From a bacterium HR21 (GTDB taxonomy: Bacteria; Bacteroidota; Ignavibacteria; Kapaibacteriales; HRBIN21), in assembly GCA_002898295.1 (NCBI GenBank), contig BEHX01000011.1, forward strand, positions 1 through 64,000: a DNA stretch of 64,000 nucleotides. The letters are read 5' to 3'. Under the pieces are notes generated by a model. The model searched no databases. It saw only the letters and a list, made by a program, of their open reading frames with translations, and was not told the origin of the DNA. Positions 2,422-64,000 of the stretch are shown in pieces; position 1 is the stretch's first letter, and each line of letters begins with the position of its first letter. A program made the position numbers and the translations under genes.

Positions 2422-5400
2422 CTACGGCAGGTAGAGCAGCGGATGGACTTCGCGGACTGTCCCACCGATGGAGAGGACACACCAGTACGTTCCCGGCGTC
2501 AGAGATGCCAGCCCGATCGTCCATGATTGTCCACAGAGGGAGGCAGCGTTGCCTTCAGCGAATGTCGTGCGGTGTTGTCCGAGCAGGTCATAGAGGGCAA
2601 TGCGGACCGGAGCAGCTGGCAGCTCACCGCAGCGGAACCAGAGATGGAGCTGCTCCCGCACCGGCTGCGGTGCCAGGAACAAGTGCTGTCCGACCAGCGG
2701 CGGTGGTGGAGCAACAGAGACCGGCGAACGGAACCCAGCGATTTTGTAGATGTTGCCTTCAAAATCTGTCACCCAGAAGCTCTTGTCGCTCGGGTCGTAT
2801 TCTATGCCCCGGGCGTTCAGCGAGGTACCACGCTGGGAGGACAGCACAAGGGAATCCCGGAGACTTGTCGGGGTAGGCAGAGAAATCTGAAGGAGGTACG
2901 CGGCGGTGAGCGAGTTGCCGCTGAAGTCGGTGGAGATGTGGTAGAGAGCGTCTTCAGCCTCATCGGCAGTCAAGCCGCGCGGTCCGAGCGGGACCCGGAA
3001 GGGGTTCTCGTAGCGGTCCTCTACCGCTCCTGTCTGCGGGTCGAGCACGTAGAGGAACTGTTGTCCATCGCGCTCGGCAACGAGGAGCTTCCCTCGGTAG
3101 AAGGCAAGCCCTGTCGGGTACCGAGCCGGACTCGGGTATTGTCCGAGGAGACGTCCAGTAGTGTCCAGCACGAGGATGATGCCCGAGGCATTCGAGGCAG
3201 TGCTGTTGAGCTTATGCACGTAGAGGATACTCCGGGCACGGTCCATCGTGAGGTCCGTGTAGAGGCTGTCTCCGCCGGGGATGCGAACTTCTTTCTCCAA
3301 CTGCAGCGTTGTGGCGTTGAGTTTGTAGAGGTAGGGCGTGGAAAAGCTCGTCGTCCAGAGCCCCCCACGGTCGTCGCGGACAATACCGTAGGGGATGTGA
3401 ACAACAGCAGCAGACTGCAGAATTGCCCCGCGCTTCCGTTCCAGCAGCGTAAAGGTCGGGGTGATGCGGACTTGCTGGGGATCCGCCTGTGAACTGACCC
3501 GAATTCGTGCCCACAGCGTAGGACGGTTCGGGGTCGTCCAGCGCAGGGTGGTGGAGGTGACGTTCTCTGCGATGAGCTCCCAACTTTGTCCATCATCGGC
3601 GGAGAACTCCACGCGAACTGGGGCGGTGAAGCCGTGCCAAGCAATGACAACCGGGGCACCAACGACGAAGACTTCTCCTCCTGCCGGTGCCGTAATTGCT
3701 GGCTCTGTGATGAGCTCTGTCGGCAGGGGAACTTCCCACATCGAGCGCCCATGCGTGGCAGCGCGGAGCACCCGACGCTGGAAGTGGATAGCAAGATCGA
3801 CAACTGGCGCCCGAGGAAGCCCAACACCGTAAGGAAGCCAGGTAGCACCACCGTCGAGCGAGGCAAATACGCCAATATCGGTCCCGACGAAGATGTGCTG
3901 TTCATTGAGTGGACTCAGCACGATGGCATTGACTGGGATATCCGGCAAGCCGACGCTGATATCCTGCCACGTACGCCCGGTGTCCGTGCTGCGCCAGACG
4001 TGTCCAGCGCCGAAGCCAGAGAGCGTGACGTAGACCGTTCCCGGATCACTTTCGGAGAGGGCAAAATCCGTCACGAAGCGGTTCGGAAGCCCGTTTTTGC
4101 CAACGTTTTCCCAGGTCTGTCCAGCGTCACTGGTGCGCCAGACCTCGCCCCGTGCTGTGCCGATGTAAATGATATTGGGGTCAGCAGCCGAGACCCCAAT
4201 GGCGGTGATGGAGGCGGTCATCGGTGGGCTGATGGCTTGCCAGAGAGCGCCTCCGTTGTATGTCGCGTAGAGGCGGCGGCGTCCATGGTAGAGGGTCTGC
4301 GAATTCGTGGGGTCCATCACCAACGGTGCGGACCAGTATCCGGGGTCGTTCGGATCAATCCCGGTGGTGATGCGCTGGAAAGACCCTGTTGCCAGATTGC
4401 GCTTCCAGAGGTCCCCATTGGGGAATTCGCCGTAGATGACGTCGGGGTTGTCCGGGTCAACGACGACGAAGAAACCGTCTCCCCCGGCGATGGCGCCCCA
4501 GTTACTGCCGCGATTCCCGAGGGTCCCGTTGTCTTGTGTCCCGCCGTAGTTGACGTTGTCCTTTGACTGATCGATTGCCATGGCGTAGAACTGGGTCACC
4601 GCCAGCCCGTTATTGATCGGCGTCCAGGTAAGCCCGGCGTCCGTACTCCGGTACATACCGCCGTCATTTGCAGCGTATACGATCGAGGGGTTGAGCGGGT
4701 TGAAAGCGGCGGCGTGCTGGTCAACGTGGACGTTCCCGCCGGAGTAGCCGTAGGTGACGTTTGTCCATGTCTGCCCGCCGTTGTCGGTGCGGTAGATGTC
4801 GATGCCGCCGGCCAACACGAGGTTGGGATTGGTTGGGTGAATGACGATGTAGGCATTGTACCAGCCCTGTCCGTTGAAGAAGGTGGATTGTCCCTGGTAG
4901 GACAGCTGCCAGCTCTGACCGCGATTGGTGGATTTGTAAATTGCCCCGGTGCCACCCGAACCACCCTGCTCGACGAGGGCATAGAGGATGTTCGGGTCAG
5001 AGGGAGCCTGCTGGACGCAGACGCGCCCGAGTGGGGAGGGAAGCCCGGTGGAGCGCAGTTCCCACGTCCGCCCTCCGTCGCTGGAGCGGTAGACGCCGCG
5101 TCCGGCAACGCCGATGAAGAACTCGGTGGTGTCCCGGGGATTGAGGCTGATATCGGTCACGCTGCCGACGAAGGTGCGTTCCCAGGTTTGCCCCCCATCG
5201 GAGGAGCGCCAGAAGCCGGCGGCGCTCTTCGTTGCACCGGCAACGATGAGGTTGGAGTTGAGCGGATGGACTTCGATTTTCGAGAATGCCCCCACGTGCG
5301 TCAGCCCGAGAGGAGTCCAGCTTTGACCGCCATCGGTGGATTTGAAGATGCCGGCGCCGAGGTAGGAGTCGATGTTATTGCTCATCTCGCCGGTGGCAGC

Positions 5401-5859
5401 GTAGAGAATATCCGGGTTGTTCGGGTCAATGGCTAAGGCGCCGAAGGAAAGGGAGTTGCCGTCATCGAAGAGCGGAATCCAGCTCTGCCCGCCATCGGTC
5501 GTGCGCCAGATACCGCCCGCAGCGGCGCCGATGTAGACCCACCCGTCCTTGCGGGGATGATGGACCACTGTGCGGATGCGCCCACCGACGGTAAACGGAC
5601 CGATGGGCTGCCACCGGGGTTGAGCAGCCTGGAGAGCGACTTTGCCCATCTTGACCTCGAGTGCGCGAGCGTGCTCCAGTGCCCGCAGGCGAGCACCCTC
5701 CGGGATACGTTCAAAGGGGTAGGCACGCGGGAAACGAAATGCTTCGTCGCGCTGGGCAGGGTCCTCCTTGCCCTGAGGGATACCAGAGGTGTCCTGTCCA
5801 TACCCGAGGCTCGGCAGCAGAAGAACCACCGTCAGACAGAGACGCCACAGACTCCGCAT
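2422..5859 (-). CDS. Secreted BNR/VPS10-sortilin-type repeat protein with T9SS-like C-terminal sorting domain
   Basis: Many 'S.DGGQSWTPL' / 'STDAGLTW' repeats; signal peptide; C-terminus HLWFRCGELPAAPVRIALYDLLGQ...LTPGTYWCVLSIGGTVREVHPLLYLP. Confidence 0.85.
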   Translation of the reverse strand: MRSLWRLCLTVVLLLPSLGYGQDTSGIPQGKEDPAQRDEAFRFPRAYPFERIPEGARLRALEHARALEVKMGKVALQAAQPRWQPIGPFTVGGRIRTVVHHPRKDGWVYIGAAAGGIWRTTDGGQSWIPLFDDGNSLSFGALAIDPNNPDILYAATGEMSNNIDSYLGAGIFKSTDGGQSWTPLGLTHVGAFSKIEVHPLNSNLIVAGATKSAAGFWRSSDGGQTWERTFVGSVTDISLNPRDTTEFFIGVAGRGVYRSSDGGRTWELRSTGLPSPLGRVCVQQAPSDPNILYALVEQGGSGGTGAIYKSTNRGQSWQLSYQGQSTFFNGQGWYNAYIVIHPTNPNLVLAGGIDIYRTDNGGQTWTNVTYGYSGGNVHVDQHAAAFNPLNPSIVYAANDGGMYRSTDAGLTWTPINNGLAVTQFYAMAIDQSKDNVNYGGTQDNGTLGNRGSNWGAIAGGDGFFVVVDPDNPDVIYGEFPNGDLWKRNLATGSFQRITTGIDPNDPGYWSAPLVMDPTNSQTLYHGRRRLYATYNGGALWQAISPPMTASITAIGVSAADPNIIYIGTARGEVWRTSDAGQTWENVGKNGLPNRFVTDFALSESDPGTVYVTLSGFGAGHVWRSTDTGRTWQDISVGLPDIPVNAIVLSPLNEQHIFVGTDIGVFASLDGGATWLPYGVGLPRAPVVDLAIHFQRRVLRAATHGRSMWEVPLPTELITEPAITAPAGGEVFVVGAPVVIAWHGFTAPVRVEFSADDGQSWELIAENVTSTTLRWTTPNRPTLWARIRVSSQADPQQVRITPTFTLLERKRGAILQSAAVVHIPYGIVRDDRGGLWTTSFSTPYLYKLNATTLQLEKEVRIPGGDSLYTDLTMDRARSILYVHKLNSTASNASGIILVLDTTGRLLGQYPSPARYPTGLAFYRGKLLVAERDGQQFLYVLDPQTGAVEDRYENPFRVPLGPRGLTADEAEDALYHISTDFSGNSLTAAYLLQISLPTPTSLRDSLVLSSQRGTSLNARGIEYDPSDKSFWVTDFEGNIYKIAGFRSPVSVAPPPPLVGQHLFLAPQPVREQLHLWFRCGELPAAPVRIALYDLLGQHRTTFAEGNAASLCGQSWTIGLASLTPGTYWCVLSIGGTVREVHPLLYLP

Positions 5860-5915
5860 GGGACACTCCGCGATGTTGGGCTTGCTACAAAGTTAGTCGG
5901 TGGCAGCAAAAGAGC

Positions 5916-6107
5916 CTACAGCCGGATGAGCCGCTCGTAGATCAGCTTGATGGCAGCGTAGATGAAGGCAGCAAAGAGCAGCACCCCAGCCCACCAGCCG
6001 TACTCCTGCCCGATGACCACGGTTGTAATGGAGAACAGGAAGACGACCACAGCGGTCAACACGAAGATGAGGGTAGCGCGTACCAGTTGTCCGAGTCCGT
6101 CAGGCAT
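5916..6107 (-). CDS. Small two-TM membrane protein
   Basis: 63 aa, MPDGLGQLVRATLIFVLTAVVVFLFSITTVVIGQEYGWWAGVLLFAAFIYAAIKLIYERLIRL; two hydrophobic helices; overlaps the hflX stop by a few bases. Confidence 0.5.
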   Translation of the reverse strand: MPDGLGQLVRATLIFVLTAVVVFLFSITTVVIGQEYGWWAGVLLFAAFIYAAIKLIYERLIRL

Positions 6108-7398
6108 TGAGCATTCCGGCAGGGTAGACATACGACGCGTATTGCCCGCGCAGGCGTTGCCCGATGGCAAGTGGACACCGGAGGCGAACCAACAATCCAT
6201 CGGGGAGTGCTTCCTGCTGGAGGATCTGTCCAGAGGTGCGCAGATGCCGCAGGAGGCGCAGCTCTGTATAGGGCAGCACGAAGGCAAGCTCTTCGCTTTG
6301 CCCTTCGTACACCCTCTGGAGGGTAGCAAGCAGCTTGCGTATGTTGATGCCCCGTTCGGCGGAAATGAACACTGCCTCGGGGTATTCGCTGCGCAGTTCC
6401 CGCAGTACGGGTGAGTCGGCAGGCAGACGATCGATCTTGTTGAAGACCAGCACGGTAGGCTTTGTTGCGATATTGAGGGTGCGTAGTGTTTCCGTCACCA
6501 CCTGCATGTGCTGGCGGAAGCTCGGATGGGAGACGTCCACAACGTGCACGAGCACATCCGCCTCTATAGCCTCTGCCAGTGTGCTATGGAAGGAGGCGAT
6601 CAGCTGGGGGGGCAGCTTCCGCAGGAAGCCCACAGTATCGGAGAGCAGTGCGGGTTGTCCGCCGGGCAAGCGGAAACGGCGCACGGTCGTGTCCAGTGTA
6701 GCAAAAAGCCGGTCCTCAACGAGGACGGAAGCGGCAGTCAGAGCGCGCATCAGGGTGGATTTCCCGGCATTGGTATAGCCGACCAAGGCGAAGCGGGGGA
6801 GCTCCTCGCGCCGGCGGCGGCGTTGTGCTCGCTGGGCTACAATTTCCTCGAGTTTGCGCTGCAAGTGCTGGATGCGCCGTCGGATGAGGCGGCGGTCTGT
6901 CTCCAGCTGTGTCTCGCCGGGTCCTCGGGTACCGATGCCGCCGACTTGCTTTGACAGGTGTGTCCACAGGCGGCTCAGGCGCGGGAGCATATACTGGAGC
7001 TGCGCCAGCTCCACTTGGACTTTCGCCTCCTGTGTGCGGGCGCGTTCGGCGAAGATGTGGAGGATAATCCCCGCACGGTCGAGCACTTTCACGTTCCAGG
7101 CTCGCTCTAGATTCCGAACCTGGGCGGGGGTAAGTCCCTCATCGAAGACCACCAGCGTGATGCCTTTCTGCTCGATGAGCGCGCGCAGCTCCTCGACCTT
7201 TCCCCGCCCGATAAAGGTTGCCACATCCGGTGTTGGGCGCTGCTGCCAGGAGATGGCAAGCACTTCCGCACCGGCACTGCGGACCAGGGTTTCCAGCTCT
7301 TGCAAGTGGTCTTCTAGCTCTTCCCGTGTCGTGTGCTGGTGAAGGAGTCCAACCAACAAGGCACGCTCCGGCACACTGGGATGCTTCACCGTTGGCAC
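6100..7398 (-). CDS. hflX: GTPase HflX
   Basis: GRGKVEELRALI, GGIGTRGPGETQLETDRRLIRRRI, GYTNAGKSTLMRALT, DTVGFLRKLPPQLIASFHSTLAE, NKID. Confidence 0.95.
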   Translation of the reverse strand: MPTVKHPSVPERALLVGLLHQHTTREELEDHLQELETLVRSAGAEVLAISWQQRPTPDVATFIGRGKVEELRALIEQKGITLVVFDEGLTPAQVRNLERAWNVKVLDRAGIILHIFAERARTQEAKVQVELAQLQYMLPRLSRLWTHLSKQVGGIGTRGPGETQLETDRRLIRRRIQHLQRKLEEIVAQRAQRRRRREELPRFALVGYTNAGKSTLMRALTAASVLVEDRLFATLDTTVRRFRLPGGQPALLSDTVGFLRKLPPQLIASFHSTLAEAIEADVLVHVVDVSHPSFRQHMQVVTETLRTLNIATKPTVLVFNKIDRLPADSPVLRELRSEYPEAVFISAERGINIRKLLATLQRVYEGQSEELAFVLPYTELRLLRHLRTSGQILQQEALPDGLLVRLRCPLAIGQRLRGQYASYVYPAGMLNA

Positions 7399-52632: not shown

Positions 52633-53372
52633 TGCGGCGTGTCCTGCTCATCGGGGCAACTTCGGCAATTGCCCAGGAAGTCGGGCGCCTCTACGCGGAG
52701 CGGCAGGCGCAGGTGTTCCTCGTCGGGCGCACGGCAGAGAAGCTCGAAGCGGTGGCGGCAGACCTAACCGTGCGCGGAGCCAAGGTTGTCGGCACCGTGT
52801 GTTGGGATGCACGGGATTGGGCACAGGCAGCCGACATTGTTGCCCGCGCCCGGCACGCGCTGGGGGTGCTGGAAGTCGTGCTCATCGCTCACGGGAGCCT
52901 GCCTCGGCAGGAGGAACTCTGGCATCACCCGGAGCGAAGTGTGGAGCAGTTCCAGCTCAATGCTACCAGTGTGGTGGCGCTTCTCAGCGCGCTCGTGCCC
53001 GTGCTCCAGGCACAGCGTCGTGGCACTGTCGGAGTCATCAGTTCTGTGGCAGGTGAGCGTGGGCGGGCACGTATGGCTGTGTACGGGGCGGCAAAAGCCG
53101 CGGTGACGGCGTTCAGTGCCGGTGTTCGCGGCTACTTGTACCCGTACGGTGTGAAGCTCATCACGATCAAGCCTGGGGTTGTTGACACTCCCATGACCGC
53201 CCATCTGCCGAAGAACTTCCTGTTTGCCTCCGCCCGTGCTGTCGGGAGGCGCATCTACCGGGCGCTCGAGCGTGGGGCGCCGGATATTCTCTACGTGCCC
53301 TGGTGGTGGCGTCCAGTGATGGCGCTTGCCCGGCTCGTGCCGGAACGCCTCTTCAAACGGCTCCGGATCTAG
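52632..53372 (+). CDS. SDR oxidoreductase, DprE2-like
   Basis: RRVLLIGATSAIAQEVGRLYAERQAQVFLVGRTAEKLEAVAADL; VGVISSVAGERGRARMAVYGAAKAAVTAFSAGVRGYLYPYGVKLITIKPGVVDTPMT. Confidence 0.88.
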   Translation: MRRVLLIGATSAIAQEVGRLYAERQAQVFLVGRTAEKLEAVAADLTVRGAKVVGTVCWDARDWAQAADIVARARHALGVLEVVLIAHGSLPRQEELWHHPERSVEQFQLNATSVVALLSALVPVLQAQRRGTVGVISSVAGERGRARMAVYGAAKAAVTAFSAGVRGYLYPYGVKLITIKPGVVDTPMTAHLPKNFLFASARAVGRRIYRALERGAPDILYVPWWWRPVMALARLVPERLFKRLRI

Positions 53373-53411
53373 CCGAGGCGGCGACCGCTTGCTATGTGAC
53401 TCGCGGTGTTG

Positions 53412-53419
53412 TAAATTTG
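53412..53419 (+). promoter_or_regulatory. TAAATTTG promoter-like box (with TTG 20 nt upstream) for fibre-like gene
   Basis: taaatttg at 53412-53419, ttg at 53389-53391; matches the Bacteroidota -33/-7 pattern TTG-N19..20-TAnnTTTG. Confidence 0.45.
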
Positions 53420-53699
53420 CACTGCCGCCGAGGAGTCGGGAAGGGTGGGGGAAAAGAATCAGTAGTGGAAAGAGGGACGGTGTGTATGGGTAGAAGACAC
53501 AACATCGGCGGTTTCCAGCGCTGCTTTTCTCACACGAGTCGAGGCGAATTCGCTAAGTTTGTGCCCAGCAACGTGACGCATGCGGGCGGTGTGCATGCCG
53601 GTGCGATGTCAGAGTACCTCCCTTGGTCTTCCCTGCCGTTCGGTACATGGACTGCACGTTTGCTGCACAGGAAGTCTCACTCTGCGCGCGAGGGTTCTC

Positions 53700-56600
53700 A
53701 TGCGGATGATGACGCTGGTTCTCGGTGTATTTCTCCTCTCGGTGTGGGCAGCACAGGGTGCGCAAGAGCAGCAAGTCCCCTATAGCGGGGTAGCCCTCTC
53801 TGCTGCGGGAGAGCCTGTGCCCGACGGGCTCCATCGGATGGAGTTCTGCCTGTTTGAGTCGGGAGGCACGCAGCCAATCTGGAGCGAAGTCCACCTGGTG
53901 GAGACGCGAGCAGGTGCCTATCAGGTGCTCTTGGGGAGCGCACGCCCTCTCCGACTCGCCGCGGGGAAGCAGTACTGGCTTGAGGTCTTCTGCGATGGGC
54001 ACTCACTGGGACGGTTCGCATTCCCTGTGGTGAGCTCGCAGGAGCAGAAGGGGGTTCCAGGATTCCGGATGGCGCCGATCCAAGACCGGACCGAGGCTGG
54101 CAAGACGGCCGTGATGGATGGACGTGGGCAGCTCCCGGTTCTCGGAGGGGTCTCCCCAGCAATGCCCCTGGTGGTCAATACGTGTGCTGAGTGCACCACA
54201 ACCTTTTGGTCGCTGACGGGGAATGCAGGTACTGATCCGGCGAATAACTTTTTGGGTACAACCGATAACCAGCCCCTCATCATCCGCACGAACAATGTCA
54301 ACCGTGTGCGGATCACCACCGGAGGACAGATTGAGGTTCTCAATAGCGGGCAGTCCGTTGCGCTCGGCGAGGCTGCTGGGACGGCAATGGACTTGACCTC
54401 GCCCCGACAGAATACTTTTGTCGGCTACCAAGCGGGGAGCCTGACAGAGACAGGGGAGAAGAACGTTGCCGTGGGAGCAACTGCGCTGTCGCAGAACATT
54501 GACGGCACGGGCAATACAGCGCTGGGCTCGAGCACGCTCACCAGTGTTACCAGTGGGAATTACAATACCGCGATCGGCTTCGGTGCCGATGTCAATGGAA
54601 ACCTTACGAATGCAACGGCAATAGGTGCCTATGCGTTTGCGGCTTCTGATAACAGTGTTGTCATCGGCTCCATTGCAGGAGTCAATGGTGCGCCGGCGTC
54701 AGCGAATGTGGGGATTGGCACAACGGCACCCACACATCGTCTCCACGTTGTGAGCACCGCTGACCCGCTCCGTATTCAGGGACTCCAGGTGGATAACACG
54801 CTGGACAATGCGTTGGTGATAGACCCCAGCGGCATTGTCAAGATCCGCTCGCTTGCCGGACTGGTTGGCTCAACTGCCTGGTTGTTGACGGGCAATACGC
54901 TCTCGGGAGGAGAGGTTCTGGGGTCGCTCAATGCGCAGCCGTTGGTTGTGGTAACTAATGGTACCGAGCGGCTGCGGGTGACAGCTACAGGAGGGGTGGG
55001 TATTGGGACCAATGCTCCCACGGCACAGGTGCACATTATGAGTCCAAGCGGTGGGGAGGTGTTGAAGCTACAGGCGGTGACTGGACAGAGTGGGTCGTTA
55101 TTGCGGTGGGAGGACGAGTTTGGGAATGCGTGGGGTGTAATTGACAACAGTGGGTTAGTGGGGATTGGGACGGCGACGCCGGTGCAGAAGCTGCACGTAG
55201 TTGGCAATGGGGCGGTATCGGCGGTGTTTGTCGAGGGCGGGGTAGGGGTAGGGACGGTCAATCCGCTGGCGACGCTACACGTGTACGACGAGGGGACGCT
55301 GACTCCGGGGACGACACAGGTATTGATTACGGCGGGGGCAAGTCAGGTCGGTAGTGGGGTCGCGTTACTGCGGTGGGAAGACAATGGGAGCAATGTGCTT
55401 GGGGTCATCGATGAGGTGGGGCAGGTGGGGATTGGGACAGCGGCACCGGCAAGGCGGTTGCACGTGGTGGGACCGGGAGGAGGGATTTCACCGGTGAGGC
55501 TGGAGCAGGTTCCGGTAGCGGCAGATGACGATGTACTGACGGTGAACAGCGGTGGGGATGTGCGCAAGCGGTCGTTGTCGGGGGCAATTAGCGGGATGGC
55601 CTGGTTGTTAGGTGGCAACACGTTGACAAGTGAGCAGGCGTTGGGGACCTTGAGTGGGCATGATTTGCCGATTTACACGGCGGGCAGCGAGCGGATGCGG
55701 ATTACGACCTCGGGCAACGTCGGCATCGGGACGGCAAGTCCGGGTGAGCGGTTGGATGTTGCAGGTAACGTACGTTTCAGCGGGGCATTGATGCCGGCGG
55801 GGATGCCAGGGGCAGGAGGGCAGGTGCTGGTCTCTCAGGGGGCGGGGACAGCCCCGGTGTGGAGCAATGACATGTACTGGGACCAAGGAACACAGCGGCT
55901 TGGGATCGGAACGGCAACGCCGACAGCGAAGCTGGACGTGCGAGGAGGTATCTACGCGCAGCATCCAACTGGTGGAGATGTATTGACACTCCAGGCGGTG
56001 GTGGGGCAGACTGGGGCGTTGTTGACATGGGTGGACGAGACGGGGACGCCCTGGGGTGTGATAGACAACGGTGGGCTTGTTGGGATTGGGACGACGACGC
56101 CGGTACAGAAGCTGCACGTAGTTGGCAATGGGGCGGTATCGGCGGTGTTTGTCGAGGGTGGGGTAGGGGTAGGGACGGTCAATCCGCTGGCGACGCTACA
56201 CGTGTACGACGAGGGGACGCTGACTCCGGGGACGACACAGGTATTGATTACGGCGGGGGCAAGTCAGGTCGGTAGTGGGGTCGCGTTACTGCGGTGGGAA
56301 GACAATGGGAGCAATGTGCTTGGGGTCATCGATGAGGTGGGGCAGGTGGGGATTGGGACAGCGGCACCGGCAAGGCGGTTGCACGTGGAGGGGGATGGGA
56401 CGGCGCCACCGGCACGGGTGACGAACCTGACGACGGGGGCAGCCACGGACAATGTGGTGGTGGTGGATGCCGCGGGGGATCTGAAGCAGATCGGGGCGGG
56501 GGCATTGATTGGGGCGCATGCCTGGTTGCTGACGGGCAACGGTGGGACGGACCCGGCAACGAACTTTTTGGGCACCACGGATGGGCAACCGTTGGTGATT

Positions 56601-59600
56601 CGGACGAACAACGTGGAGCGGGTGCGGGTGACGGCGACAGGGCAGGTGGGGATTGGGACGGCGACGCCGGGGGCGCTGCTGCATGTGGCGGGAGATGTGC
56701 GAGTGGATGGCAACACGACGTTGGGGGATGCGGCGACGGACCAGGTGACCTTTACGGCGCGGGTCAACTCGGCGGTGATACCGGCGGTGGACAATGCGTA
56801 TGATTTCGGGGAGAACCTCACGCCGTTGCGGTGGCGCAGTGGGTATTTTGGGACATCGGTGGTGGTGGGGTCGAGTGTGAGCTTGCTGGGGGCGACGAAC
56901 GAGTTGGCGTACAGTGGTGGGGATGGGCTGATACGGGTTGCGGGGGCGAATGCGTTGCAGGTGTGGACCAACGGGGCGGAGCGGGTGCGGGTGACCGGGG
57001 GTGGGGTGGTGCAGATACAGAATCAGGCAGGGGGGACACCGACGACGGAGCTGCAGGTGTTGGCAGGCAACAGTGGGGCGGGTGCGACGCGGCTGCTTTT
57101 GCGGGCAGGCTTGGGGCAATCGGGGACGAATCTGTTTGAGTGGCAGGATGCCACGGGGACGCCCCTTGGGGTGATAGATGCGTCGGGCTTTGTGGGGATT
57201 GGGACCACGACGCCGCAAGTGCCTTTGCATGTGAAGAGCACGCCGTTTACGGCGACGTTTGAGGATGGGACGGTGCGCATAGGGACCATTGGGATAAGTG
57301 GGAGCACGTCGGGACCGGACCTTGTGGTGTGGGATGAGCCTGGGGCGACGCAGGTGGTGTTGCAGTTAGGGACGTCCCAGGCTGGGGCGAACCTTTTGGA
57401 GTGGCAGGATGCTGTGGGGACGGTGTTCGGTGGGGTCGATGATGCGGGGAACTTCTTTGTGAACACGAACACGACGTTGGGGGATGCGGCGGCGGACCAG
57501 GTGACGATCACTGCTGGGACGGTTGTGGCGGCGAACATACCGGGGGGGAGCACGGCGACCGATGTGGTGGTGCGCGCAGGTGGTGGGGCGTTACAGTATC
57601 GGGATGCCGGTGGGTTGATAGGCGGGTATGCCTGGTTGCTGACGGGCAACAGTGGGACGAACCCGGCGACAAACTTTTTGGGCACCACGGATGGGCAACC
57701 GTTGGTGATTCGGACGAACAACGTGGAGCGGGTGCGGGTGACGGCGGCGGGGCAGGTGGGGATTGGGACGCCGACGCCGGGGGCGACGTTGGATGTGGCG
57801 GGGACAGCGAACGTGAGTGGGAACACCAGTGTTGGGGGGAATCTGACGGTTGGGGGCAACACGACGTTGGGGGATGCGACGAGTGACAACGTGACCTTTA
57901 CGGCGCGGGTCAACTCGGCGGTGATACCGGCGGTGGACAATGCGTATGATTTCGGGGAGAACCTCACGCCGTTGCGGTGGCGCAGTGGGTATTTTGGGAC
58001 ATCGGTGGTGGTGGGGTCGAGTGTGAGCTTGCTGGGGGCGACGAACGAGTTGGCGTACAGTGGTGGGGATGGGCTGATACGGGTTGCGGGGGCGAATGCG
58101 TTGCAGGTGTGGACCAACGGGGCGGAGCGGGTGCGGGTGACGGCGGCGGGGGTAGTGCAGGTGCAGAATCAGGCAGGGGGGACACCGACGACGGAGCTGC
58201 AGGTGTTGGCGGGCAACAGTGGGGCGGGTGCGACGCGGGTGGTTATCCAGGCGGGGAATGCTCAGTCGGGGGTGAACCTGTTGGAGTGGCAGGATAACAC
58301 GGGGCAGCTCATTGGGGTGATTGACAACTCGGGCTTTGTGGGCATTGGGGTGAACAATGCCGGCTTTGGTGGGATTGCAGGGTACTTGCACGTATACAGC
58401 AACGCAGCGCAGCCGGCAGCGATCTTCGAGAACGGGGCGGTCGGAATCGGGACGAATGCACCGGACTTCGCCTCGACACTGCATATCTACGATGCCCGAC
58501 CAGCGGGACCAGGGACAGGAGCCACGCGGGTGGTGCTGCAGATGGGGGCTAACCAGGCAGGGGTGAACCTGTTGGAGTGGCAGGATAACACGGGGCAGCT
58601 CATTGGGGTGATTGACAACTCGGGCTTTGTGGGCATTGGGGTGAACAATGCCGGCTTTGGTGGGATTGCAGGGTACTTGCACGTATACAGCAACGCAGCG
58701 CAGCCGGCAGCGATCTTCGAGAACGGGGCGGTCGGAATCGGGACGAATGCACCGGACTTCGCCTCGACACTGCATATCTACGATGCCCGACCAGCGGGAC
58801 CAGGGACAGGAGCCACGCGGGTGGTGCTGCAGATGGGGGCTAACCAGGCAGGGGTGAACCTGTTGGAGTGGCAGGATAACACGGGGCAGCTCATTGGGGT
58901 GATTGACAACTCGGGCTTTGTGGGCATTGGGGTGAACAATGCCGGCTTTGGTGGGATTGCGGGGTACTTGCACGTATACAGCAACGCAGCGCAGCCGGCA
59001 GCGATTTTCGAGAACGGGGCGGTCGGGATCGGGACGAATGCACCGGACTTCGCCTCGACACTGCATATCTACGATGCCCGACCGGCAGGAGCCACGCGGG
59101 TGATTTTGCAGGCGGGCGCTGGGCAAGGGACGACGAACCTATTGGAGTGGCAGAACAGTTCGGGCACAGTGCTCGGGGTCGTCGATGGGGCAGGACGGGT
59201 CGGGATCGGGACGAACACCCCAGGGGCGAAGCTGCACGTGAAGGAGACAGCTCCTGGGGTCTCTCCCGTACGGCTTGGAGGAGTCCCAGCAGCAGCGGCT
59301 ACCGATGAGGTCCTCCGGATTGACGCCAGCGGGAATGTTACCAAAAGCAGTGCTGCTGCCGTTGTCTCGGCAGGTATCATCAAGGGAAGCTTCCCGATTA
59401 CAACGTCCGGCTCTTCCTTCACAATCTCCGTAGCGCCGGCGGATATCCAGTCTGGTGCAATCGTGACGGTAACCTTGGTTGGTCCCAGCAGTGGTACAAT
59501 CTACCCGCTAATGGTGACCAACATCAATGCGGCAGCCGACCAAATCACGGTGGAATCTTCTGCCGTGATCCCTGGTGGTAGTGGCTACGCTATCCACTAC

Positions 59601-59618
59601 ATCATCATCAATCCGTGA
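53700..59618 (+). CDS. Giant repetitive fibre/adhesin-like secreted protein (YadA-head-like + GIGT-P-LHV repeats)
   Basis: Signal peptide MRMMTLVLGVFLLSVWAAQGA; N-terminal YSGVALSAAGEPVPDGLHRMEFCLFESGG domain; NTFVGYQAGS/NVAVGATALS/NTALGSSTLT/NTAIGFGADV; many 'GIGTATPxxxLHV' repeats. Confidence 0.85.
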   Translation: MRMMTLVLGVFLLSVWAAQGAQEQQVPYSGVALSAAGEPVPDGLHRMEFCLFESGGTQPIWSEVHLVETRAGAYQVLLGSARPLRLAAGKQYWLEVFCDGHSLGRFAFPVVSSQEQKGVPGFRMAPIQDRTEAGKTAVMDGRGQLPVLGGVSPAMPLVVNTCAECTTTFWSLTGNAGTDPANNFLGTTDNQPLIIRTNNVNRVRITTGGQIEVLNSGQSVALGEAAGTAMDLTSPRQNTFVGYQAGSLTETGEKNVAVGATALSQNIDGTGNTALGSSTLTSVTSGNYNTAIGFGADVNGNLTNATAIGAYAFAASDNSVVIGSIAGVNGAPASANVGIGTTAPTHRLHVVSTADPLRIQGLQVDNTLDNALVIDPSGIVKIRSLAGLVGSTAWLLTGNTLSGGEVLGSLNAQPLVVVTNGTERLRVTATGGVGIGTNAPTAQVHIMSPSGGEVLKLQAVTGQSGSLLRWEDEFGNAWGVIDNSGLVGIGTATPVQKLHVVGNGAVSAVFVEGGVGVGTVNPLATLHVYDEGTLTPGTTQVLITAGASQVGSGVALLRWEDNGSNVLGVIDEVGQVGIGTAAPARRLHVVGPGGGISPVRLEQVPVAADDDVLTVNSGGDVRKRSLSGAISGMAWLLGGNTLTSEQALGTLSGHDLPIYTAGSERMRITTSGNVGIGTASPGERLDVAGNVRFSGALMPAGMPGAGGQVLVSQGAGTAPVWSNDMYWDQGTQRLGIGTATPTAKLDVRGGIYAQHPTGGDVLTLQAVVGQTGALLTWVDETGTPWGVIDNGGLVGIGTTTPVQKLHVVGNGAVSAVFVEGGVGVGTVNPLATLHVYDEGTLTPGTTQVLITAGASQVGSGVALLRWEDNGSNVLGVIDEVGQVGIGTAAPARRLHVEGDGTAPPARVTNLTTGAATDNVVVVDAAGDLKQIGAGALIGAHAWLLTGNGGTDPATNFLGTTDGQPLVIRTNNVERVRVTATGQVGIGTATPGALLHVAGDVRVDGNTTLGDAATDQVTFTARVNSAVIPAVDNAYDFGENLTPLRWRSGYFGTSVVVGSSVSLLGATNELAYSGGDGLIRVAGANALQVWTNGAERVRVTGGGVVQIQNQAGGTPTTELQVLAGNSGAGATRLLLRAGLGQSGTNLFEWQDATGTPLGVIDASGFVGIGTTTPQVPLHVKSTPFTATFEDGTVRIGTIGISGSTSGPDLVVWDEPGATQVVLQLGTSQAGANLLEWQDAVGTVFGGVDDAGNFFVNTNTTLGDAAADQVTITAGTVVAANIPGGSTATDVVVRAGGGALQYRDAGGLIGGYAWLLTGNSGTNPATNFLGTTDGQPLVIRTNNVERVRVTAAGQVGIGTPTPGATLDVAGTANVSGNTSVGGNLTVGGNTTLGDATSDNVTFTARVNSAVIPAVDNAYDFGENLTPLRWRSGYFGTSVVVGSSVSLLGATNELAYSGGDGLIRVAGANALQVWTNGAERVRVTAAGVVQVQNQAGGTPTTELQVLAGNSGAGATRVVIQAGNAQSGVNLLEWQDNTGQLIGVIDNSGFVGIGVNNAGFGGIAGYLHVYSNAAQPAAIFENGAVGIGTNAPDFASTLHIYDARPAGPGTGATRVVLQMGANQAGVNLLEWQDNTGQLIGVIDNSGFVGIGVNNAGFGGIAGYLHVYSNAAQPAAIFENGAVGIGTNAPDFASTLHIYDARPAGPGTGATRVVLQMGANQAGVNLLEWQDNTGQLIGVIDNSGFVGIGVNNAGFGGIAGYLHVYSNAAQPAAIFENGAVGIGTNAPDFASTLHIYDARPAGATRVILQAGAGQGTTNLLEWQNSSGTVLGVVDGAGRVGIGTNTPGAKLHVKETAPGVSPVRLGGVPAAAATDEVLRIDASGNVTKSSAAAVVSAGIIKGSFPITTSGSSFTISVAPADIQSGAIVTVTLVGPSSGTIYPLMVTNINAAADQITVESSAVIPGGSGYAIHYIIINP
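55188..55467 (+). repeat. Direct repeat R3 copy 1 (about 280 bp; partner 56109-56388, offset 921 bp)
   Basis: aagctgcacgtagttggcaatggggcggtatcggcggtgtttgtcgag... through ...aaggcggttgcacgtgg; near-identical to the partner. Confidence 0.85.
56109..56388 (+). repeat. Direct repeat R3 copy 2
   Basis: See 55188-55467; same sequence at offset +921 bp (307 codons). Confidence 0.85.
56745..56995 (+). repeat. Direct repeat R2 copy 1 (partner 57891-58141, offset 1146 bp)
   Basis: gtgacctttacggcgcgggtcaactcggcggtgataccggcggtggac...; encodes VTFTARVNSAVIPAVDNAYDFGENLTPLRWRSGYFGTSVVVGSSVSLLGATNELAYSGGDGLIRVAGANALQVWTNGAERVRVT in both copies. Confidence 0.88.
57891..58141 (+). repeat. Direct repeat R2 copy 2
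   Basis: See 56745-56995; offset +1146 bp (382 codons). Confidence 0.88.
58271..59100 (+). repeat. Tandem array, period 291 bp (97 aa), about three units
   Basis: ggtgaacctgttggagtggcaggataac recurs at 58271, 58562 and 58853 (291-bp steps). First two units appear identical; the third has scattered substitutions and a short deletion near 59085. Confidence 0.92.
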
Positions 59619-59652
59619 GCAAGTCCCACGAGGTTTCGGTGAGGGAGCAGAT

Positions 59653-62600
59653 ATGAAGCGGCTCGCGACGGTTCTGGTAGCAGTGCTCGCAACGCAGGTG
59701 GCACTCTACGCCCAAGGTTTGGGTGCCAGCCAGCTCATCCTAACGAATCCCAGCGGTGGGGGGATCATCCTCCAACCCGATCCGGCTGCGACCTCGCTCC
59801 GGCCGCTGGTGGTGACGCCACCGCCAGCTCCGGGATTCCAGCTGGTCTACACCCCCAGCGGGTGGCTGCAGAATCGGCTGGTAAAATGGACCAGTAGCTC
59901 CGTCCCCTCTCTTGGGAACTCCCTCATCTACGATGACGGGACGAATATCGGGATTGGGACGCCGACGCCGGGGGCGCTGCTGCATGTGGCGGGAGATGTG
60001 CGAGTGGATGGCAACACGACGTTGGGGGATGCGGCGACGGACCAGGTGACCTTTACGGCGCGGGTCAACTCGGCGGTGATACCGGCGGTGGACAATGCGT
60101 ACGACCTGGGCAGCAGCAGCCGGCGGTGGCGGGATGGGTGGTTCAGTGGGACGGTGACGGGGCAGAATGTGACGGTGACGGGGCTGACGGCGGGGTCGGT
60201 GGTGTTTGCCGGCAGCGGTGGGGCGTTGAGCCAGGACAATGCGAACTTGTTCTGGGATGATGGGAACAACCGGCTGGGCATTGGGACGAATGCGCCGGCG
60301 ACGACACTGCATGTGGCGGGGGCAGCGACGATCACGGGTGCGGCTTCCGTTGGCGGGAATCTGAGCGTTGTGGGGAGTGCGACGATTGGGACGGGGTTGA
60401 CTGTGTCCGGTGGCGGGGCAGCGATTACGGGGAATGTGTCGGTGACGGGCAACATAACGGCGACGGGGGATCTGACGGTGGAGGGGAACACGACGTTGGG
60501 GAATGCGGCGGCGGACCAGGTGACGATTGTAGCAGGGACGGTGACGGCGGCGAATTTGCCGGCGGTGTTGGCTGGGGATGACTTTGTGATACGGGATGGG
60601 GGGCAGTTGAAGGTACGCACGATTTCCAACATTGTGACTGGGACGGGGACGGCGAACCGGTTGGTACGGTGGACGGGTACGAGCACGATTGGGGATGGGA
60701 GCCTGGATGACAATGGGTCAGGGACGCTGAGCCGTGCGGGGAACATAGCGATCAATCCGGGGGCGGGTAACACATTGTCGACCAATGGGAACTTCAGTGC
60801 GGCGGGGACGGGGACGTTTGGCGGGCAGCTGACGGTTAGCAGTGGCGGGGCAGCGATTACGGGCAATAGCACGGTGAGCGGGACGCTTGGGGTCAGCAGT
60901 GATGTGAGCGTTGGGGGGAATTTGACGGCGACGGGCAACGGGAGCATAGGGGGGAGTTTGAGCGTGACAGGGACGGGTCAGTTTGGCAACACGCTGACGG
61001 TCAGCAGTGGCGGGGCAGCGATTACGGGGAATGTGTCGGTGACGGGCAACCTCTCGGCGACGGGCAACGGGAGCATAGGGGGGAGTTTGAGCGTGACAGG
61101 CAACGGGAGCATAGGGGGAGATTTGGCAGTCAACGGGAATACGACGTTGGGTGCTGGGGCAGGGAACAGTGTGACGATCACCGCTGGGACGGTGACGGCG
61201 GCGAATTTGCCGACGGGGACGAGCGATGACTTTATTGTGCGGGATGGGAGCAATGCGCTGCGGGTACGCACGATTTCCAACATTGTGACTGGGACGGGGA
61301 CGGCGAACCGGTTGGTACGGTGGACGAGTGCGAGCACGATTGGGGATGGGAGCCTGAGTGATGATGGGTCAGGGACGTTGAGCCGTGCGGGGAACATAGC
61401 GATCAATCCGGGGGCAGGCAACACATTGTCGACCAATGGGAACTTCAGGGTGGATGGGAATACGACGTTGGGGGATGCCGCAAGCGATAACGTGACGTTC
61501 ACGGCGCGGGTCAGCTCGGCGATTGTTCCTTCGACTGATGCGACCTACGACTTAGGGTCGAGCACGTTGCGGTGGGCGAACATTTACGGTGGGGATTTTC
61601 TTGGGGACAATTTGGTGCTGGGTGGCAATGCGAACATCAACACGAATGCCACGGTTGGGGAGGTGCTGCAGGTAGGCAATGGGACGAATCCGAGTGCGAT
61701 GGTGCAGGTGCTGGCGAACCGTACGGGGGCGGCGGTGACGATTTCGAATGTGAACGCAGGGGGCTGGGCGATTGATGCCGGAGGGCATGTGCTGCCGACG
61801 ACAGACAATGCGTACGACCTGGGCAGCAGCAGCCGGCGGTGGCGGGATGGGTGGTTCAGTGGGACGGTGACGGGGCAGAATGTGACGGTGACGGGGCTGA
61901 CGGCGGGGTCGGTGGTGTTTGCCGGCAGCGGTGGGGCGTTGAGCCAGGACAATGCGAACTTGTTCTGGGATGATGGGAACAACCGGCTGGGCATTGGGAC
62001 GAATGCGCCGGCGACGACACTGCATGTGGCGGGGGCAGCGACGATCACGGGTGCGGCTTCCGTTGGCGGGAATCTGAGCGTTGTGGGGAGTGCGACGATT
62101 GGGACGGGGTTGACTGTGTCCGGTGGCGGGGCAGCGATTACGGGGAATGTGTCGGTGACGGGCAACATAACGGCGACGGGGGATCTGACGGTGGAGGGGA
62201 ACACGACGTTGGGGAATGCGGCGGCGGACCAGGTGACGATTGTAGCAGGGACGGTGACGGCGGCGAATTTGCCGGCGGTGTTGGCTGGGGATGACTTTGT
62301 GATACGGGATGGGGGGCAGTTGAAGGTACGCACGATTTCCAACATTGTGACTGGGACGGGGACGGCGAACCGGTTGGTACGGTGGACGGGTACGAGCACG
62401 ATTGGGGATGGGAGCCTGGATGACAATGGGTCAGGGACGCTGAGCCGTGCGGGGAACATAGCGATCAATCCGGGGGCGGGTAACACATTGTCGACCAATG
62501 GGAACTTCAGTGCGGCGGGGACGGGGACGTTTGGCGGGCAGCTGACGGTTAGCAGTGGCGGGGCAGCGATTACGGGCAATAGCACGGTGAGCGGGACGCT

Positions 62601-64000
62601 TGGGGTCAGCAGTGATGTGAGCGTTGGGGGGAATTTGACGGCGACGGGCAACGGGAGCATAGGGGGGAGTTTGAGCGTGACAGGGACGGGTCAGTTTGGC
62701 AACACGCTGACGGTCAGCAGTGGCGGGGCAGCGATTACGGGGAATGTGTCGGTGACGGGCAACCTCTCGGCGACGGGCAACGGGAGCATAGGGGGGAGTT
62801 TGAGCGTGACAGGCAACGGGAGCATAGGGGGAGATTTGGCAGTCAACGGGAATACGACGTTGGGTGCTGGGGCAGGGAACAGTGTGACGATCACCGCTGG
62901 GACGGTGACGGCGGCGAATTTGCCGACGGGGACGAGCGATGACTTTATTGTGCGGGATGGGAGCAATGCGCTGCGGGTACGCACGATTTCCAACATTGTG
63001 ACTGGGACGGGGACGGCGAACCGGTTGGTACGGTGGACGAGTGCGAGCACGATTGGGGATGGGAGCCTGAGTGATGATGGGTCAGGGACGTTGAGCCGTG
63101 CGGGGAACATAGCGATCAATCCGGGGGCAGGCAACACATTGTCGACCAATGGGAACTTCAGGGTGGATGGGAATACGACGTTGGGGGATGCCGCAAGCGA
63201 TAACGTGACGTTCACGGCGCGGGTCAGCTCGGCGATTGTTCCTTCGACTGATGCGACCTACGACTTAGGGTCGAGCACGTTGCGGTGGGCGAACATTTAC
63301 GGTGGGGATTTTCTTGGGGACAATTTGGTGCTGGGTGGCAATGCGAACATCAACACGAATGCCACGGTTGGGGAGGTGCTGCAGGTAGGCAATGGGACGA
63401 ATCCGAGTGCGATGGTGCAGGTGCTGGCGAACCGTACGGGGGCGGCGGTGACGATTTCGAATGTGAACGCAGGGGGCTGGGCGATTGATGCCGGAGGGCA
63501 TGTGCTGCCGACGACAGACAATGCGTATGACTTAGGGTCGAGCACGTTGCGGTGGGCGAACATTTACGGTGGGGATTTTCTTGGGGACAATTTGGTGCTG
63601 GGTGGCAATGCGAACATCAACACGAGTGCCACGGTTGGGGAGGTGCTGCAGGTAGGCAATGGGACGAATGCGAATGCGACGGTACAGGTGCTGGCGAACC
63701 GTACGGGAGAAGCGGTCTTCGTGAGTAACTCGGGGAATGGACCGGGAATCGTCATTGATAACTCGGGGGCGACGACCCCAGGGCGTGCCCTGGAGGTGGC
63801 AAACGGAGGCGGCGGGGTGAAGTTCTCGTACGGTACGGTGAATGTCGTCACGGACGCAGCAACGATTCCAGACAACCTGACGGTGGTGCAGGTGAATGGC
63901 GATGCCAATACTACCAACGATGCGATCACCCTGCCTACCGGGGCAGTGAATGGGCAAATCCTCTACGTGCGGTATGTGAGTAATGGTGCTAATGCCGTGT
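59653..64000 (+). CDS. Second giant fibre/adhesin-like repetitive protein (3' end beyond window)
   Basis: MKRLATVLVAVLATQVALYAQGLGASQLILTNPSGGG signal peptide, then GIGTPTPGALLHVAGDVRVDGNTTLGDAATDQVTFTARV...; segments translated in this frame carry no stop, and the ORF track reports no terminated ORF in it. Confidence 0.85.
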   Translation, partial: MKRLATVLVAVLATQVALYAQGLGASQLILTNPSGGGIILQPDPAATSLRPLVVTPPPAPGFQLVYTPSGWLQNRLVKWTSSSVPSLGNSLIYDDGTNIGIGTPTPGALLHVAGDVRVDGNTTLGDAATDQVTFTARVNSAVIPAVDNAYDLGSSSRRWRDGWFSGTVTGQNVTVTGLTAGSVVFAGSGGALSQDNANLFWDDGNNRLGIGTNAPATTLHVAGAATITGAASVGGNLSVVGSATIGTGLTVSGGGAAITGNVSVTGNITATGDLTVEGNTTLGNAAADQVTIVAGTVTAANLPAVLAGDDFVIRDGGQLKVRTISNIVTGTGTANRLVRWTGTSTIGDGSLDDNGSGTLSRAGNIAINPGAGNTLSTNGNFSAAGTGTFGGQLTVSSGGAAITGNSTVSGTLGVSSDVSVGGNLTATGNGSIGGSLSVTGTGQFGNTLTVSSGGAAITGNVSVTGNLSATGNGSIGGSLSVTGNGSIGGDLAVNGNTTLGAGAGNSVTITAGTVTAANLPTGTSDDFIVRDGSNALRVRTISNIVTGTGTANRLVRWTSASTIGDGSLSDDGSGTLSRAGNIAINPGAGNTLSTNGNFRVDGNTTLGDAASDNVTFTARVSSAIVPSTDATYDLGSSTLRWANIYGGDFLGDNLVLGGNANINTNATVGEVLQVGNGTNPSAMVQVLANRTGAAVTISNVNAGGWAIDAGGHVLPTTDNAYDLGSSSRRWRDGWFSGTVTGQNVTVTGLTAGSVVFAGSGGALSQDNANLFWDDGNNRLGIGTNAPATTLHVAGAATITGAASVGGNLSVVGSATIGTGLTVSGGGAAITGNVSVTGNITATGDLTVEGNTTLGNAAADQVTIVAGTVTAANLPAVLAGDDFVIRDGGQLKVRTISNIVTGTGTANRLVRWTGTSTIGDGSLDDNGSGTLSRAGNIAINPGAGNTLSTNGNFSAAGTGTFGGQLTVSSGGAAITGNSTVSGTLGVSSDVSVGGNLTATGNGSIGGSLSVTGTGQFGNTLTVSSGGAAITGNVSVTGNLSATGNGSIGGSLSVTGNGSIGGDLAVNGNTTLGAGAGNSVTITAGTVTAANLPTGTSDDFIVRDGSNALRVRTISNIVTGTGTANRLVRWTSASTIGDGSLSDDGSGTLSRAGNIAINPGAGNTLSTNGNFRVDGNTTLGDAASDNVTFTARVSSAIVPSTDATYDLGSSTLRWANIYGGDFLGDNLVLGGNANINTNATVGEVLQVGNGTNPSAMVQVLANRTGAAVTISNVNAGGWAIDAGGHVLPTTDNAYDLGSSTLRWANIYGGDFLGDNLVLGGNANINTSATVGEVLQVGNGTNANATVQVLANRTGEAVFVSNSGNGPGIVIDNSGATTPGRALEVANGGGGVKFSYGTVNVVTDAATIPDNLTVVQVNGDANTTNDAITLPTGAVNGQILYVRYVSNGANAV
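60091..61803 (+). repeat. Tandem duplication unit 1 (1713 bp, 571 codons)
   Basis: gacaatgcgtacgacctgggcagcagcagccggcgg at 60091 and 61804. Antisense ORFs recur with identical translations at +1713 (60978..61502 vs 62691..63215; 60947 vs 62660 starts). Confidence 0.93.
61804..63527 (+). repeat. Tandem duplication unit 2 (1713 bp, plus start of a partial third unit)
   Basis: Same sequence at +1713; gacaatgcgta recurs at 63517, then diverges to tgacttagggtcgagcacg (a second copy of an internal sub-repeat). Confidence 0.93.

Follow-up and report, generated by a model that had tools for sequence, protein, structure and literature searches.

A G-ending codon dialect in multi-copy fibre-gene segments of a Kapabacteria genus

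Third codon positions have usually been read as one signal, in which mutation bias and expression are combined. GC-biased gene conversion raises G and C alike and does so on both strands, and regions that form R-loops and G-quadruplexes have a positive GC skew. For the giant genes of Apilactobacillus kunkeei, homogenisation has been inferred between strains, with no recent conversion reported among the giant paralogues (PMC12863079). In the window analysed here, the whole 64,000-nt stretch of DNA from the bacterium HR21, two equilibria have been observed within one reading frame; they are kept genus-wide, and the boundary lies where the DNA turns multi-copy. We consider it rather probable that a directional nucleotide pressure on the coding strand holds a separate equilibrium in the multi-copy, homogenised fibre-gene segments of one Kapabacteria genus, with G at about 0.65 or more and C at about 0.1 at the fourfold sites of this pool, and with weaker shifts at codon positions 1 and 2. 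No description of such a codon dialect has been found in a search of open-licence papers.

The step has been located in gene 1, whose open reading frame is intact and whose likely start is the ATG at 53700 (MRMMTLVLG), ahead of a signal-peptide-like stretch. Its parts are the following.

53580 to 59618, plus strand: gene 1, a fibre-like secreted protein; open reading frame of 2012 aa with PHROG tail fibre matches
53700 to 55019, plus strand: body of gene 1, where codon usage is at background; the fibre units at 54228-54329 are spelled in ordinary codons
55020 to 59231, plus strand: repeat block of gene 1, G-ending and C-poor, delimited by fourfold-site composition and breakpoints
59232 to 59615, plus strand: C-terminal part of gene 1, codons again at background
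58221 to 59093, plus strand: 291-nt unit in three head-to-tail copies, 92-100% identical to the reference copy
56745 to 56983, plus strand: tract identical to 57891-58129, adjoining diverged sequence (family D4)

The G fraction of gene 1 at fourfold sites rises at 55,020 from ~0.37 in the body to 0.49-0.87 in the block and falls back at 59,232. Window by window, the body holds G.32-.45 and C.21-.33 at these third positions, C in the block is mostly.05-.16, and the last window is at G.28; the background of the genome, taken from 256 ORFs, is G.36 +/-.08 and C.34. With fourfold codons conditioned on codon family, the best breakpoints have been placed at 55,023 and 59,232, with a log Bayes factor of 50.2 for two breaks and 30.9 for one, as against a highest one-break value of 7.5 in 100 within-family codon shuffles. 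Sharp steps at the repeat boundaries, G-ending codons across ~55.07-59.1 kb and a return of mixed codons at ~59.2 kb had been proposed in an earlier note on this DNA, and the computed breaks bear all of this out. The same is true of its remark that like peptides are spelled differently on the two sides of the step, since 8 of 34 codons end in G and 14 in C at 54228-54329, against 23 and 6 of 34 at 57654-57755.

All four- and six-codon families of the block shift to G relative to the body (GGG.33 to.69, GTG.36 to.68, ACG.33 to.69, GCG.26 to.59, CCG.44 to.76, CGG.32 to.71, TTG.10 to.46 and, for serine, TCG.19 to.35), and the two-codon purine families also move to G (.70 to.93). C-ending codons drop, ATC included, the rare ATA increases, and fourfold T drops from.16 to.11 or less; overall GC stays near.60-.67, and the GC skew is about.4. 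Positions 1 and 2 shift too, more weakly (V over I, G over S), in a comparison that spans genes and genera and is softer than the third-position result; their shift argues for a pressure at the nucleotide level rather than one on codon reading alone. Selection of G-ending codons through tRNA supply could draw on the fact that every C-starting anticodon is present and that two copies of tRNA-Gly(CCC), the reader of GGG, accompany a single tRNA-Gly(TCC) in the tRNA cluster (L154, G000:C7). It is nevertheless highly improbable, as C-ending codons are favoured in EF-Tu, EF-G and most ribosomal proteins (C3.42-.52 and G3.24-.34 in most), and a preference of highly expressed genes for C-ending codons excludes translational optimisation; body and block, moreover, differ within one protein, and the increase of rare ATA also counts against it.

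The phenomenon is wider than the earlier note had described, as the next gene and genes on contig C12 share the dialect.

59575 to 64000, plus strand: gene 2, a second fibre gene, running out of the window as far as about 64.1 kb
59938 to 63706, plus strand: G-ending block of gene 2 (log Bayes factor 32.1)
60291 to 61810, plus strand: 1520-nt stretch within gene 2, with zero differences from 62004-63523

Gene 2 may owe this perfect repeat either to a recent duplication or to an assembly artefact. Both genes match tail-fibre families (gene 1 phrog_18345, E 9e-39; gene 2 phrog_19602, E 9.8e-11); Peptidase_S74 above the Pfam cut-off is absent from these two and present in the cluster genes L020:1358-3679 and 3736-6450. 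Contig C11 (65,702 bases) terminates within another fibre gene, and contig C12, which we infer to continue it, opens within a fibre gene and carries more of them, with Peptidase_S74 and a T9SS-like C-terminal domain (CTD). The fibre genes of C12 have G-rich parts, and a paralogue on C10 is written mostly in ordinary codons. A putative T9SS CTD has been read from the sequence of cluster genes 3-6 (an NPF...GxY...MTLVR ending with many copies in the genome), and no curated T9SS sorting-domain model scored above threshold in the cluster genes scanned. In this genome and its congeners, contig ends often fall within or close to fibre repeats (window 53000-64000; starts of C10 and C12), and public genomes probably contain such fibre genes in incompletely assembled form. 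A search for structured RNA gave no Rfam match, and promoter- and terminator-like sites occur at about shuffle level. Among hundred-codon windows, which overlap and are hence not independent, G of at least.65 together with C below.15 has been found in 119 of 275 inside the fibre-gene cluster and in 1 of 9,692 elsewhere (245,000 codons sampled).

The G fraction is tied to DNA copy number. Its correlation with the DNA copy score has a rho of.70, four congeners giving.63-.72, to be read with the caveat that composition bias alone can inflate DNA match scores; for the protein-level copy score, rho is.47-.64. Segments without a DNA copy have a G fraction of.39, those with a copy at 100 bits or more.71, and those with protein copies and no DNA copies.37. 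The CTD, found many times in the genome, provides the cleanest copy-number control: G3 is.56-.74 in multi-copy CTDs, which comprise four homogenised cluster copies and two of another family (C1, C3) and thus represent two independent families, not six, and it is.25-.51 in 15 single-copy CTDs, so that the ranges are disjoint. Within the same genes, the 150 codons upstream of the CTD show less bias (.38-.61). The apparent DNA duplicates in L248, L252, L261, L263 and L266 have been judged to be probable overlaps of neighbouring ORF calls, and L024 and L156 are one and the same stretch.

The copies are mosaics, with long identical tracts beside diverged ones (families D3, D4, D13), which indicates ongoing exchange or duplication; the tract at 56745-56983 reads as such a mosaic from either process. 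Within the genome, copies are 85-100% identical, while orthologous fourfold identity is near the composition expectation, and the repeats accordingly display both the within-genome likeness and the mosaic tracts of concerted evolution. Near-identical copies differ at too few sites for the direction of recent mutations to be polarised. The pattern does not match GC-biased gene conversion, which would have G and C rise together: at the fourfold sites G rises and C falls.

Two observations weigh against a simple copy-number rule. Tandem arrays of a 42-nt NTASG unit are C-ending in three congeners (C3.6-.8), which means that a multi-copy state is not sufficient for the G dialect, and a CTD of the second family in G002 (L314, G002:C11:60435-60680) reaches G3.77 although a search of that genome returned no close second copy. 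The genomes are drafts, probably metagenome-derived, and the congener contigs with gene 1 end in or near repeats, so copy numbers are lower bounds. The arrays (NTASGxYATVGGG) lie in L187:10412-13474 (aa 480-690), L188:8867-11428 on the minus strand (aa 120-220) and L190:8885-10315 (aa 60-145), in the fixed spelling AAC ACC GCC AGC GGC ... GTC GGC GGG GGC, and they adjoin G-ending C-terminal domains within the same genes, where opposite dialects thus meet.

In the congeners G002-G005, the step lies at the same alignment position, and a G-rich CTD (.56-.71) is shared by the five species compared. Fourfold identity between congeners is about what composition predicts in body and block alike, that is, near saturation. 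With a star tree and 124 orthologous block sites, a stationary G-rich model has been compared with free-root decay to body composition, both having the same number of parameters. The stationary model is better by 9.9 lnL and has been preferred in 40 of 40 bootstraps; the synonymous turnover rate of the block is.77 of that of the body, and the free model returns an equilibrium G of.63. The dialect is consequently a maintained equilibrium and not a decaying relic. These results bear on a founder effect, according to which a G-rich seed unit expanded, neutral concerted evolution keeps the copies similar and the dialect survives as a fossil. Mosaic copies and recent duplicates would fit such a history, as would the C-ending NTASG arrays, which resemble an inherited unit spelling; the equilibrium test disfavours a frozen seed, and the bias is common to unrelated segments (fibre units and two CTD families), which leaves the founder effect rather unlikely. 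Expansion from a seed of different composition, as suggested by the earlier note, is therefore insufficient, since the orthologous fourfold sites have largely turned over and the G-rich equilibrium persists.

The abrupt boundaries within one gene would also be expected after horizontal acquisition from a G-ending donor or from a chimaeric assembly. Both are ruled out by the recurrence of the step in four congeners and by a scan for the G-ending VGIGT..P pattern, which returned 54 contigs among 85,462 genomes. Flanks that are markedly G-rich and C-poor belong to congeners (G.61-.63, C.10-.16), and the best outsiders reach.52-.53 with C.21-.35. Two of these congeners are labelled Candidatus Kapaibacterium sp. 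SKYG35 and Bacteroidota JZ-1, and we accordingly take the genus to be a Kapabacteria lineage. Homologues in other genera of the order have no G bias, and we regard an origin by acquisition or chimaera as very unlikely. Some other-genus fibre homologues deviate from their own background in other ways (A3.43 vs.26 background in L100 of G036; G3.13 vs.24 in L094 of G024). A protein-level scan of the genome collection returned no relatives.

The bias follows the coding strand and is independent of the replication strand. In the genome of the window, every G-rich locus checked is leading-encoded; lagging-encoded CTDs in the three congeners G001, G004 and G005 are G-rich as well, which removes the replication strand as the cause. 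Of the strand-biased mutation considered in the earlier note, the replication sense therefore fails, and a coding-strand pressure linked to transcription or RNA is compatible with the data. Transcription-associated mutation, with R-loops acting on the non-template strand, would account for a bias that keeps to the coding strand on both replication strands and that affects positions 1 and 2. Deamination would, however, raise fourfold T, yet T falls, and C-to-G and T-to-G changes would be needed; the unrepeated parts of the same genes are, in addition, unbiased, and we hold this mutational origin to be quite unlikely, slightly more so than the founder effect.

Selection for G-rich RNA, the remaining suggestion of the earlier note, has found no support in the form of G-quadruplexes: block 1 contains 6 G4 motifs vs 6.0 after permutation of its own synonymous codons and block 2 contains 0 vs 0.7, and runs of at least four G are not raised over the same control, with runs of three slightly raised. 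Rut sites for Rho loading are C-rich and G-poor, and selection on mRNA might favour G-rich, C-poor repeats that avoid structure or Rho loading in very long transcripts. The coding-strand specificity of the bias agrees with this, as does the weaker folding of block 1 RNA (-37.7 vs -42.2 kcal/mol per 120 nt recoded, 11 of 14 windows). Block 2, on the other hand, shows no RNA folding difference, and no bias is present in the gene body, in a 1640-aa ORF lying elsewhere in the window or in other-genus homologues of 2000-2700 aa, which makes selection on mRNA a doubtful, though still conceivable, explanation.

The most likely route, which we put forward tentatively, would combine exchange among the copies with a transcription- or RNA-level pressure, by which G-rich, C-poor variants of the coding strand would be retained. 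One possible reason is that position 1 is already rich in G (Gly/Val/Ala), so that C would render the repeats self-complementary. Native DNA folding is weaker than that of background recoding in five of six blocks, block 2 folding no more weakly than its recoded sequence, and the amino acids of the blocks have moved toward G-rich codons; avoidance of hairpins leaves the choice of G over A/T unaccounted for, which counts against it. A more specific version, in which exchange among multi-copy coding segments is coupled to transcription and imposes a preference to G and away from C on whatever enters the pool, would represent a bacterial, strand-asymmetric analogue of biased gene conversion; we regard coupling and analogy, taken together, as speculative and improbable at present.

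If exchange among copies drives the dialect, it would constitute a strand-asymmetric form of biased conversion, and if RNA-level selection drives it, repetitive secreted proteins would prove to be under a strong nucleotide constraint. In both cases, such genes would give misleading results in dN/dS analysis and in codon-based searches for gene transfer.

Among known systems, phage tail-fibre-like proteins with a Peptidase_S74 chaperone and a T9SS CTD are resembled in the PHROG matches of genes 1 and 2 and in the S74 domain of cluster genes; tail-fibre-type homologues in other genera, however, are without the dialect, and the protein type is thus not its cause. With regions that form R-loops and G-quadruplexes the blocks share, on composition alone, a strongly G-rich, C-poor non-template strand, but unlike G4 regions they have no excess of G4 motifs or of runs of at least four G over their own permuted codons. 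As in bacterial GC-biased gene conversion, a directional change of composition is tied to exchange between homologous copies, whereas here G goes up and C goes down on the coding strand. The closest likeness in organisation is to A. kunkeei, where very large secreted proteins are encoded in clusters and show recombination tracts as well as homogenised segments (PMC12863079); the accessible part of that account does not mention GC skew, and the homogenised segments of the present fibre genes differ in having a nucleotide equilibrium of their own.
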